A stretch of DNA of 44,101 nucleotides from a virus. A model generated the notes under the pieces. That model was not told the origin of the DNA. It did no database searches and saw only the letters and a program-made list of their open reading frames with translations. Shown in pieces: positions 1 through 44,101 of the stretch (the stretch's first letter is position 1; the number at the start of each line of letters is the position of its first letter). The stretch covers positions 1 to 44,101 of IMG/VR virus record IMGVR_UViG_3300022918_000019; one strand, 5' to 3'. Made by a program: the position numbers and the translations under genes.

Positions 1-513
1 CGTGGTGCTAACCTTGGTGGTGCTAACCTTCGTGATGCTAACCTTGGTGATGCTAACCTTGGTGATGCTGACCTTGGTGATGCTAACCTTGGTGGTGCTG
101 ACCTTCGTGGTGCTAACCTTGGTGGTGCTAACCTTCGTGGTGCTAACCTTGGTGGTGCTAACCTTGGTGATGCTAACCTTGGTGATGCTGACCTTGGTGG
201 GTTCAAACACGATATATGGGCGATATTATTACATGCCCCTCACGAGATTCAAGGTCTTGTTGATTCTATCAATGCAGGTAAAATTAACGGTTCTGTATAT
301 GAAGGGGAATGTGCGTGTTTGCTGGGAACTATCGCAAACGTAAAGGGTGTAAGGCATACCGAAATACCGGGTCTTGTTCCTGATTCCAGAAGACCTGCTG
401 AAATATGGTTTTTGCAATTCAAAAAGGGCCAAACGCCTGAAAACTATTCACCATTGAAATTAACATTGGATTGGATAGAAGAGTTTAGAAAGTTGCTTTC
501 TTTAGCTAAATAA
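1..513 (+). CDS. Pentapeptide-repeat protein, C-terminal part (gene broken by the window ends)
   Basis: Frame 1 reads 13 consecutive A(N/D)LxX pentapeptides (bases 7-201, one 15-base unit each), then a unique C-terminal domain of about 100 residues starting FKHDIW and ending LLSLAK. The 5' part of the same gene is at 43725-44101. Joined over the 8-base identity of the window ends, the protein would have about 293 residues: 35 N-terminal residues, about 31 repeats and the C-terminal domain. Pentapeptide repeats fold into a right-handed square beta-helix, and some family members mimic DNA and bind gyrase. Pentapeptide proteins with this kind of unique C-terminal domain are familiar from phages, but their role is unknown. 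The +1 frame is open only because the repeat has no stops. Confidence 0.85.
7..201 (+). repeat. Tandem 15-base repeat array (right part), 13 units
   Basis: Thirteen units of the form gctaaccttNgtgRt follow each other without gaps and encode pentapeptides. Variation is limited to a few positions (a/g in the second codon, c/g at the start of the fourth, a/g in the fifth). Units 2-7 repeat, nearly base for base, the blocks at 43845-43934 and 44010-44099, so the array has a higher-order repeat on top of the 15-base period. It is coding sequence, not a CRISPR array. Confidence 0.95.
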
Positions 514-639: not shown

Positions 640-1320
640 ATGTCTGATAAAAATGAAATTGTTGATGAATTTGATGGTGAAGAAATGCATGGTGATGTGG
701 GTAGTTTTACCCTTGCGCCTGCTGGCAATCATCCTGCTATCTGTGTAAGTGTTGTTCTGATTGGAACAATTGACACTACTTTCAAGGGTAATCCGGTAAG
801 AAAAAAACTTATCCGTATTGGTTTTGAATTACCCAAGCAAAGACACGTATTCAATGAAGCAAAAGGTGAAGAACCATTTGTTGTGTACAAAGAATACACG
901 TTTTCAATGGGAAATTCCAACTTCAAAAAGATGTTAGAATCTTGGAGGGGTGAACCGTTTGCTTCAAAGGAAGAAGCGAAAAAATTCAATGTTGTTAAAT
1001 TATTGGGATGTGAGTGCATGGCTAATATTGTTGTTAAGACTTCCGGAAACGGTAACCAATACAATGATATAGCAACTGTTACGCCTTTGCCAGACGGCTT
1101 AGAAGTACCAGCACAATCAAACAAAAGCACATTGTTCAATTTCAATCCTCCGTTCAAAACAGAAGTATTTAATTCTTTGCCTGAATTTATTCAGAATAAA
1201 ATTAAATCTTCTGACGAGTACAAAGCTTTAGGAGGTGAAGCACCTGCATCAACTTCACAATCAAGTACTCAGGCTACAGCAGCTACAACGGGTGCTAAAA
1301 AGAAGGGGTTGCCGTTTTAG
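640..1320 (+). CDS. Putative single-stranded-DNA-binding replication protein (DUF669-like), 226 aa
   Basis: The protein is all-beta in character up to about residue 150 (APAGNHPAICVSVVLIGT, then a KEYTFSMGNSNFKKMLESWRG block and a KTSGNGNQYNDI block). A Ser/Thr/Ala/Gln-rich linker follows (about 200-218) and the protein ends KKKGLPF. Phage proteins with this pattern belong to a DUF669-like group found beside recombination and replication genes, and are thought to bind single-stranded DNA. The C-terminal LPF resembles the last residues of SSB proteins, but the usual acidic residues are replaced by lysines. It is followed by a non-coding structured stretch rather than directly by the next gene. 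The ssDNA-binding role is inferred from sequence character and position. Confidence 0.6.
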   Translation: MSDKNEIVDEFDGEEMHGDVGSFTLAPAGNHPAICVSVVLIGTIDTTFKGNPVRKKLIRIGFELPKQRHVFNEAKGEEPFVVYKEYTFSMGNSNFKKMLESWRGEPFASKEEAKKFNVVKLLGCECMANIVVKTSGNGNQYNDIATVTPLPDGLEVPAQSNKSTLFNFNPPFKTEVFNSLPEFIQNKIKSSDEYKALGGEAPASTSQSSTQATAATTGAKKKGLPF

Positions 1321-1326
1321 CTCTAA

Positions 1327-1498
1327 CAAAATCACGTACCTTGGAACGGATATACAGGGTTAAATATTGGTCTCAATGCGTGATACTCCGGCAGCAGGGT
1401 TTGCTACTCACTGCCGGAACAATAGGGTAACTTCAGAAGGTCGTTACCTAGCCTCTATCATAAGTCAGGTCTACCAACACGGCAATGATAGGGGTTTG
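1327..1498 (+). ncRNA. Candidate novel structured RNA (about 170 nt, multi-hairpin)
   Basis: This stretch between two genes folds by eye into consecutive perfect stems. P1 is ATCACG 1331-1336 with CGTGAT 1379-1384, and it encloses P1a (ACCTT 1338-1342 / AGGGT 1356-1360, one G-U) and P1b (ATTG 1366-1369 / CAAT 1374-1377, tetraloop). P2 is TCCGGCAG 1387-1394 with CTGCCGGA 1411-1418. P3 is GGTAAC 1426-1431 with GTTACC 1443-1448. P4 is 12 pairs with two wobbles, 1450-1461 with 1485-1496. A weak closing helix CAAA 1327-1330 / TTTG 1495-1498 competes with the outer pairs of P4. The region is richer in G+C than its flanks, as expected for structured RNA in an A+T-rich genome. I do not recognise the family. 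The strand is taken from the flanking genes; being inverted repeats, the stems could also form on the other strand. Confidence 0.6.
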
Positions 1499-1524
1499 AA
1501 AAATTCACTTTTACTTTTATAACC

Positions 1525-2483: not shown

Positions 2484-3299
2484 ATGAAAAAAGTAATTTA
2501 TGCTTTCGCAATTGCAACAATTATTTCATGTTTTTTGTCTTCGTGTAGCACCCGTATTGATGGAGGTGCTGAAGGGATTTTAGTACAGGACTACGGGAGT
2601 TCAAAAGGCGTTCAGGACATTGCCCTGGCTGCTGGTCGTGTGTGGTACAACCCCTTTACAGAAACAGTTTATGAAACTGATTTGTATGTAAAAACAATTG
2701 ATTACGATCCGTTCACCGTAAATGATAAAGACGGTTCAGAATTTGTGGTTGATCCTAAAATATCATTGAAGGTTATCCCTGGCTCAACGCCTCATATCTT
2801 TAGAAAATACAGGAAAGATGTTGACAAGGTGTTTGAAAGTACGGTTTACACCTATACACAGGATGCTTATCGTATAGTATTCAATAGCTTTAAAACTGAT
2901 TCTGTAATATCTCACCGGGCTCAATTTGAAAAGGGTGTAGAGGACTTATTAAGAAGAAAGCTAAAATCAGACGGTATCAGCTTAGAAAATTTAACTTCTG
3001 GATTGCAATACCCGGCAACAATTATTGCAGCGGTGAACGCAAAGAATACAGCCGTACAGCATGCCATGCAAATTGATAACGAGGTGAAGACCACCGAGGC
3101 TGAAGCACGTAAGAAGATAGCCAAGGCTGAAGGTGATGCCACAGCGTTAAAAATACAGGCTGATGCAGAAGCATATGCTTACAGAGCAAAACAGCAAACG
3201 TTGACCCCTTTGATTGTTCAGCAACAATTTATTGAGAAGTGGGACGGTAAACTTCCGGTGTACGGGCAAACGCCTAGTATGTTTAAGAGCGTACAATAA
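2484..3299 (+). CDS. SPFH/Band-7 domain lipoprotein, 271 aa
   Basis: The signal sequence ends in a lipobox-like L-S-S-C (Cys21). The rest matches the SPFH (prohibitin/stomatin/HflK-HflC) pattern: a beta-rich segment to about residue 110 (GRVWYNPFTETVYETDLYV), an alpha/beta segment with a QFEKGVEDLLRRKL helix, and a long Ala/Glu/Lys helix (about 195-245, repeats of the KIAKAEGDA type) typical of SPFH oligomers. Such proteins form rings or microdomains at membranes and, as HflKC, modulate FtsH proteolysis. As a lipoprotein it would lie on the periplasmic side or outer membrane. It follows two small membrane proteins and precedes a tRNA-like element. A role in membrane protection or superinfection control is inference. 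Confidence 0.8.
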   Translation: MKKVIYAFAIATIISCFLSSCSTRIDGGAEGILVQDYGSSKGVQDIALAAGRVWYNPFTETVYETDLYVKTIDYDPFTVNDKDGSEFVVDPKISLKVIPGSTPHIFRKYRKDVDKVFESTVYTYTQDAYRIVFNSFKTDSVISHRAQFEKGVEDLLRRKLKSDGISLENLTSGLQYPATIIAAVNAKNTAVQHAMQIDNEVKTTEAEARKKIAKAEGDATALKIQADAEAYAYRAKQQTLTPLIVQQQFIEKWDGKLPVYGQTPSMFKSVQ

Positions 3300-3307
3300 A
3301 TAAATGA

Positions 3308-3364
3308 CACCGGGAAGTATTGGGTACTTGTAGGTAACACGGGTTCGATCCCCGTCCCCGGTGC
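3308..3364 (+). ncRNA. tRNA-like element lacking an anticodon arm (about 57 nt)
   Basis: CACCGGG (3308-3314) pairs perfectly with CCCGGTG (3357-3363) as an acceptor-like stem. A canonical T arm follows the tRNA rules exactly: ACGGG 3339-3343, loop TTCGATC, CCCGT 3351-3355. A D-arm-like hairpin is present (AAGTA, loop TTGGG, TACTT, 3315-3329). Only 9 bases lie between the D-like and T arms, so there is no room for an anticodon arm. It cannot be a decoding tRNA as it stands. It may be a decayed tRNA, or a tRNA mimic that recruits RNase P/Z or other tRNA-binding proteins. A second tRNA-like element follows at 3601. Confidence 0.6.
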
Positions 3365-3393
3365 TTCGATATAAACCAATCGAAACCCCAAAA

Positions 3394-3600: not shown

Positions 3601-3668
3601 TCCGGGTTCGTCTAGTGGCAGGACGGTGACTGATATCCATTACAGCGGTTCGATTCCGCTATCCGGTA
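3601..3668 (+). tRNA. tRNA-like gene, anticodon tentatively GAT (Ile), atypical
   Basis: The acceptor stem TCCGGGT 3601-3607 pairs with ATCCGGT 3661-3667, with one mismatch at the outer pair and one G-T. The D arm GTCT / GGAC (3610-3613, 3621-3624) has GG in the loop. The T arm AGCGG, TTCGATT, CCGCT (3644-3660) is canonical. Between them, loop CTGATAT (3630-3636) has T before GAT and A after it, as an anticodon loop should, giving GAT (Ile). The supporting stem GGTGA / CCATT has two wobbles and a mismatch, and the variable loop is only 2 bases. CCA is not encoded. It may be a degenerate or phage-modified tRNA, and charging is doubtful. Confidence 0.5.
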
Positions 3669-41764: not shown

Positions 41765-41765
41765 A

Positions 41766-41782
41766 TTTCAAATATAGTGAAA
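41766..41782. promoter_or_regulatory. Operator-like element TTTCA-N7-TGAAA, copy 1
   Basis: A 17-base dyad TTTCA-aatatag-TGAAA overlaps the -7 box of the late promoter. The same dyad with another centre occurs at 42157-42173 in the opposing promoter. Binding of one regulator to both would link the two halves of the genome. Confidence 0.5.
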
Positions 41783-41800
41783 TTTAGCACATTTTTGAAA
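41769..41800 (-). promoter_or_regulatory. Leftward late promoter
   Basis: On the minus strand, TTTC (41800-41797), 20 bases, then TATATTTG (41776-41769), a perfect TAnnTTTG box. It drives the 23-kb late operon. It overlaps the TTTCA-N7-TGAAA element at 41766-41782 and three tandem GTTWCAAAA-like repeats upstream. Confidence 0.75.
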
Positions 41801-41879
41801 CCTTTTGTAACCTTTTTGAAACTTTTTTTTGTGACCCTTAACGGCAACAATGCCAGGCACATATGTGTAATACACAAAA

Positions 41880-41896
41880 TAGACACAAAAGACACA
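41880..41896 (-). repeat. Paired TGTGTC repeat, left arm
   Basis: The reverse complement reads TGTGTC-TTT-TGTGTCTA, two TGTGTC units 9 bases apart. With 41956-41972 it forms an inverted pair with one mismatch over 17 bases. Confidence 0.6.
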
Positions 41897-41955
41897 GTGG
41901 ATTTCAGTTGTAGTAAAATTCTATGCTATCAAAAATTACCTGAGTGAAATATCTG

Positions 41956-41972
41956 TGTGTCATTTGTGTCTA
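41956..41972 (+). repeat. Paired TGTGTC repeat, right arm
   Basis: TGTGTC-ATT-TGTGTCTA repeats the left arm in inverted orientation, 59 bases away. More units lie at 42061-42067 (inverted) and 42095-42109 (TGTGTC followed, 9 bases later, by TGTGAC), flanking the A+T-rich segment. Confidence 0.6.
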
Positions 41973-42156
41973 CTATTAATTATTATAATAATATTACTAT
42001 TTAAGAATATATAATATATTAATAATAAAGTAGTTAATTTTTAAAATAATGGAATAATGCAGACACAATCTGTAAAAAAGTGAAACCTATTTTTTGTGTC
42101 TATTGTGACCGTTGATAATCAGGTGCTTATATTAAAAGTTTCATTTTTATTAAATA

Positions 42157-42173
42157 TTTCATTATTAATGAAA
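42157..42173. promoter_or_regulatory. Operator-like element TTTCA-N7-TGAAA, copy 2
   Basis: TTTCATT and AATGAAA form 7-base arms around ATT. The element covers the -33 box and part of the spacer of the rightward promoter, so bound protein should block it. Confidence 0.5.
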
Positions 42174-42187
42174 ATATAGTACCTTTG
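42157..42187 (+). promoter_or_regulatory. Rightward promoter of the nuclease gene
   Basis: TTTC (42157-42160), 19 bases, then TACCTTTG (42180-42187), an exact TAnnTTTG box. The start codon of the nuclease gene lies 20 bases beyond. It differs from the four-copy promoter family. Confidence 0.75.
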
Positions 42188-42207
42188 AAACATAAATTGT
42201 ATTATTT

Positions 42208-43724: not shown

Positions 43725-44101
43725 ATGATAAAAATACAGATTAAAACTTGGTATGGTTCTCTGCTTTTTGAATATGAGAAAGAGAACAACACAGTAAAAG
43801 AAACACTTTTAGCTGCAATAACCGCAAAGGCTAACCTTGGTGGTGCTAACCTTCGTGATGCTAACCTTGGTGATGCTAACCTTGGTGATGCTGACCTTGG
43901 TGATGCTAACCTTGGTGGTGCTAACCTTCGTGGTGCTAACCTTCGTGGTGCTAACCTTGGTGGTGCTAACCTTGGTGGTGCTAACCTTCGTGGTGCTAAC
44001 CTTGGTGGTGCTAACCTTCGTGATGCTAACCTTGGTGATGCTAACCTTGGTGATGCTGACCTTGGTGATGCTAACCTTTGTGGTGCTGACCTTCGTGGTG
44101 C
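43725..44101 (+). CDS. Pentapeptide-repeat protein, N-terminal part (continues at base 1)
   Basis: [20 protein letters not shown] leads into 18 full A(N/D)LxX repeats from base 43830 and runs off the window. The first ATG at 43720 (atgacatga) stops at once, so 43725 is the start. The N-terminal domain is the type seen in phage pentapeptide proteins. The last 8 bases equal the first 8 of the window, and joining there keeps the frame. See 1-513 for the rest. Confidence 0.85.
43830..44101 (+). repeat. Tandem 15-base repeat array (left part), 18 units
   Basis: Eighteen full units and 2 bases. Units 2-7 and 13-18 match almost exactly with an 11-unit (165-base) period, and the same block recurs at 22-111. 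High base-level identity suggests recent expansion by recombination or slippage. Confidence 0.95.

Follow-up and report, generated by a model that had tools for sequence, protein, structure and literature searches.

It is an established principle that tRNAs lead to 3'-end formation through RNase P and tRNase Z, and another that stacked hairpins block 3' exonucleases. For mascRNA and menRNA, a tRNA-like element downstream of a transcript leads to cutting and to 3'-end formation. The pRNA of phi29-type phages is similar in length to the element studied here. Further, ROOL and GOLLD are structured RNAs of phages that are often located beside tRNA islands (PMC12286853), and STAXI, built of two to three pseudoknots in tandem, is a structured element that occurs near genes for single-stranded-DNA-binding proteins (PMC2864571).

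Here we describe a segment of a phage whose host group is Bacteroidota. In the window, i.e. the whole stretch of 44,101 nucleotides that was analysed, it lies between an ssDNA-binding-like (ssb-type) gene and a gene of unknown function, where the earlier note had placed it. Folding predictions indicate that 1331-1496 is probably an unusually stable, non-coding structured RNA. As a sequence the element is new; its kind, a phage structured RNA near tRNAs, is already known. The features of the region are:

640..1320, + strand: upstream gene, 226 aa, ssDNA-binding-like, phrog_862
1331..1384, + strand: P1, long imperfect hairpin with a base of 7-8 bp, ATCACGTA/TGCGTGAT
1367..1522, + strand: overlapping open reading frame, 51 aa from TTG or 48 aa from ATG at 1376, judged not coding
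1387..1418, + strand: P2, TCCGGCAG/CTGCCGGA with inner GGGT/ACTC
1425..1449, + strand: P3, GGGTAAC/GTTACCT with an 11-nt loop, TTCAGAAGGTC
1450..1496, + strand: P4, 12-pair stem AGCCTCTATCAT/ATGATAGGGGTT with an inner helix
1525..2040, + strand: downstream gene, 171 aa, function unknown, same strand as the ssb-type gene
3306..3366, + strand: mini tRNA-like element of about 56 nt, with a CACCGGG/CCCGGTG acceptor-like stem, one hairpin and the T arm ACGGG-TTCGATC-CCCGT; no D arm
3602..3667, + strand: tRNA-Ile (GAT), 66 nt, weak anticodon stem

Like ROOL and GOLLD, the element lies close to tRNA features, here a tRNA and a tRNA-like element in the same interval; however, it is only about 166 nt long, whereas many GOLLD members, for example, exceed 800 nt, and no Rfam model of these families matches it. 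As in STAXI, an ssb-type gene adjoins, but the predicted structure consists of four simple hairpins; no tandem pseudoknots were seen by eye, and there was no STAXI match in Rfam. The resemblance to phi29-type pRNA is one of length only, and Rfam gave no match here either. A packaging RNA, one of the functions suggested in the earlier note, is unlikely, because the phage has a terminase large subunit and the element sits in the ssb region and not among the packaging genes. The shape of mascRNA and menRNA is found in the mini element, at 3308-3363, and not in 1331-1496, which has no T arm; with the mascRNA-menRNA model the mini element scores 12.0 bits, far below the cut-off of 42.5. The same mechanism is proposed below for the tRNA-like neighbours.

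In general, no relative of the element was found by sequence. Rfam 15 gave 0 matches in 1300-1540, at the gathering score or at E<=10, and neither blastn of the element in phages and plasmids nor scans with two DNA patterns revealed a homologue. Two extra matches of the second pattern were due to chance and lie in unrelated sequence. A covariance model, R1, was built from the single sequence, and a one-sequence model is insensitive: it found nothing in the whole records of relatives and related loci (0.89 Mb of related viral loci), and nothing in 395 sampled Bacteroidota genomes, where an empty search with such a model proves nothing. The only other copy in the collections searched is in L001, a record of the same phage: over 7.3 kb the two are 100% identical, and a further 5.5 kb agree to 99.98%.

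When 1320-1505 of the plus strand is folded as RNA, the energy is -58.9 kcal/mol, while the mean of shuffled sequences is -41.6 (sd 4.4); this corresponds to a z of -3.9, and 0 of 200 shuffles were as good. The plus strand is much better than the minus strand, for which the z is -1.2. Four adjacent hairpins are predicted in 1331-1496, most of their main pairs having a probability of 0.9-1.0, in agreement with the stems proposed earlier. Taken singly, P2 (z -5.0) and P4 (z -3.9) stand out most. P4 indeed has 12 pairs, i.e. A-U 1450-1496, G-U 1451-1495 and ten inner pairs, and it follows P3 with no linker. The exact fold of 1331-1496 is a thermodynamic prediction only.

Two structural details suggested earlier have to be changed. 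P1 had been described as carrying two inner hairpins; this three-way junction, with the hairpins ACCTTG/CAGGGT and ATTG/CAAT, is a suboptimal form at -12.4 kcal/mol, compared with -14.4 for a single long imperfect hairpin, and has a probability of about 0.03 as RNA, although it is the minimum under DNA parameters. The short closing helix CAAA/TTTG is not predicted, and its formation would compete with the two final pairs of P4. What stands of the proposal of a possible new structured RNA is a stable sense-strand fold that is probably non-coding and matches no Rfam family or homologue in the collections searched; the detail of P1 is altered.

The word AGGGT occurs 22 times on the plus strand, and three of these are inside the element (1355-1361, 1395-1401 and 1424-1428), with CAGGGTT present twice, 40 nt apart. 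This was noticed post hoc.

The overlapping reading frame does not look like a gene. Its codon score, 0.05 per codon, corresponds to the 0.5th percentile of real 51-codon chunks and falls within the out-of-frame distribution, where 6% of the chunks score as high. There was no Pfam match and no tblastn match in phages for 1367..1522. Protein conservation of the 48-codon frame had been named as an observation that would speak against a structured RNA; no relatives of it were found and its codons score as non-coding DNA. On codon score, Pfam and tblastn, a coding role of the element was rejected.

The 226-aa protein has a tblastn match (30% identity) to a "putative ssDNA binding protein" of Pseudoalteromonas phage RIO-1, while a search for relatives of the 171-aa downstream protein returned the identical copy only. 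The gap between the two genes is 204 nt, from the end of the first at 1320 to the start of the second at 1525, and the first helix starts 10 nt past the ssb-type stop codon. Searches of the plus strand gave no match to a Bacteroidota-type promoter (TANNTTTG) from 343 to 1541 and none to a terminator in 560-2100. Since there is no match to a promoter or terminator of its own and the flanking genes run in the same direction, the element is most likely transcribed together with ssb.

Two further observations concern the phage. An SPFH/Band 7 lipoprotein-like gene at 2484-3299 encodes a protein that shares about 55% identity with proteins encoded on Pontibacter and Chitinophaga chromosomes, which may be a hint to the host. 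The ends of the window (1-113 and 43989-44101) overlap with 99% identity over 113 nt, within a pentapeptide-repeat gene, and L001 spans the join; on this evidence the window appears to be a circularly permuted, complete genome of about 43,988 bp.

Protein searches identified four diverged relatives: L002 (with the near-identical L003), L004, L126 and the contig behind L125/L204. Their ssb-type genes are 44-50% identical to the one studied here, and in all four a homologue of gene 4090 follows. The element itself is absent from them according to blastn and model R1. Nevertheless, in 4/4 relatives a folded, non-coding gap immediately follows the ssb-type gene (105-566 nt, z -2.1 to -3.7):

L002: 242 nt, z -2.1
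L004: 105 nt, z -2.2
L126, 5543-6108: 566 nt, the first 358 nt with z -3.7
L204 contig, 1630-1963, - strand: 334 nt, z -3.3

By folding energy, the gaps of L002 and L004 reach only moderate significance. L002 (2582-2707) and the L204 contig (1630-1963, minus strand) hold tRNA shells directly behind the ssb-type gene, with a 7-bp acceptor stem, a D arm with GG and a canonical T arm. Their anticodon region, by contrast, is abnormal and enlarged, and ARAGORN recognises these shells only if introns are permitted. Within the gap of the L204 contig, a helix of about 17 pairs (AACATTTCGGGAACCGC/GCGGTTGCCGAAATGTT) encloses one domain, and within that of L126 one domain is enclosed by a 14-pair helix, with a T-rich stretch after it. 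In the window, the interval from ssb to 4090 also contains extra genes besides the mini tRNA-like element and the tRNA-Ile. We read this interval as a small, fast-turnover RNA island. Among the five gaps there is no sequence similarity beyond T arms and AT-rich pieces, so the case for a common function of these RNAs is one of position and not of shared sequence.

Our preferred reading, which we hold tentatively and short of confidence, is that 1331-1496 is a non-coding structured RNA within the ssb operon transcript, occupying a slot of quickly replaced folded RNAs, and that it closes and protects the ssb message. The slot, between the ssb-type gene and gene 4090, would in this phage group always hold a folded RNA, whether tRNA, tRNA-like or other, which is quickly replaced. 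After the transcript is cut, the four stacked hairpins would form the 3' end of the ssb message, as suggested by P1 starting 10 nt after the stop codon. In the two relatives with tRNA shells, these could do the cutting via RNase P and tRNase Z. The stacked hairpins would then block 3' exonucleases and protect the ssb RNA, whose level would thereby be set apart from that of the downstream genes, and the fragment set free in this way may persist as a stable small RNA. Closing of the ssb message by a folded or cleavable RNA is, as a model, the simplest mechanism that spans all five phages.

Against a pure protector counts that one hairpin suffices for 3' protection, so that 170-560 nt exceeds the need. 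This elaborate size argues that at least some of the slot RNAs also act after release. The strongest rival, although on balance unlikely, goes further: an RNA of the phage, cut out of the operon transcript, would act in trans by binding or occupying a host factor, as a decoy, an anti-defence RNA, a mimic or a complex of the ROOL/GOLLD type near tRNA islands. Several stacked helices with short linkers are more than a 3' protector needs, the quick replacement in relatives fits an arms race, and tRNA-like elements adjoin, as tRNA islands often do for ROOL and GOLLD (PMC12286853). On the other hand, the element resembles no such RNA, either in sequence or by Rfam, an own promoter was not found, and the target is not known. 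A broader version, in which the slot behind ssb is dedicated to trans-acting structured RNAs that are rapidly replaced and either counteract host defence or mimic RNAs of the host, appears more doubtful; such RNAs may include tRNA shells without a normal anticodon arm as well as new folds like 1331-1496.

The structured RNAs of phages are under-annotated. If the slot always holds a folded RNA without conserved sequence, it is a place to seek RNA functions that homology searches miss, and the tRNA shells, given their altered anticodon regions, could serve as decoys or as processing signals.

The element could also act at the DNA level: while the DNA near the ssb gene is replicated or repaired, the strand would fold as ssDNA. 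Such a role has been suggested for STAXI, which is found near ssb genes and may act as ssDNA or RNA (PMC2864571). Using DNA parameters, both strands do fold better than shuffles (z -3.3 and -2.6). However, 8 of the 55 pairs in the predicted fold are G-U, and as RNA the two strands differ strongly in how well they fold; further, the tandem pseudoknots that define STAXI were not seen by eye, and the tRNA shells of the relatives are RNA features. We consider this improbable.

Still less probable is a degenerated remnant of a tRNA island, in which P1 would be a decayed tRNA shell (7-bp acceptor ATCACGT/GCGTGAT, a D-arm-like hairpin with the loop GAACGGATATA) and the rest debris. Two relatives do carry tRNA shells in the same slot, and the best fold of P1 is only 2 kcal/mol more stable than its three-way junction. 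Taking as tRNA-like a T arm (5 bp with a TTCRA-type 7-nt loop) beside a 7-bp acceptor stem, a scan and ARAGORN with introns allowed found no T arm and no standard tRNA in 1321-1524, and there was no Rfam tRNA match at E<=10. The same combination of arms was found at 3308-3363 and 3602-3667 of the window, in L002 and in the L204 contig. The acceptor and the D-arm-like hairpin can be traced in P1 by eye, but with no T arm and a low probability P1 was rejected as a tRNA shell. In addition, P2-P4 are near perfect, unlike debris.

To assess how unusual the fold is, we compared it with the rest of the genome. Among the delimited non-coding gaps of at least 80 nt, the gap with the element ranks lowest in energy per base as well as in z. 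In the genome-wide scan it ranks fourth of 1174 windows, and all higher-ranked windows are in coding DNA. Strong-looking folds at 32.9 kb were discarded, being coding DNA. Chance, i.e. stable hairpins without function or a short real gene with incidental structure, is the least probable explanation: some coding windows of this genome do reach a z of -4 to -5.7 by energy, and the fold is without covariation support since the only other copy is identical, but the gap is the most extreme of the non-coding gaps, the overlapping reading frame looks non-coding, and four relatives have folded gaps here too.

The element has a G+C of 0.465, above the 0.27-0.39 of the flanks as previously noticed. The accompanying statement that nothing similar occurs at other gene borders is too strong: besides the mini tRNA-like element (3306-3366) and the tRNA-Ile (3602-3667), there is a folded gap of 443 nt at 41765-42207. 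This gap is A+T-rich, lies between divergent gene blocks, is folded on both strands (z -3.8 and -3.3) and contains dyads of the GACACAAA type; it is possibly a control region or origin.
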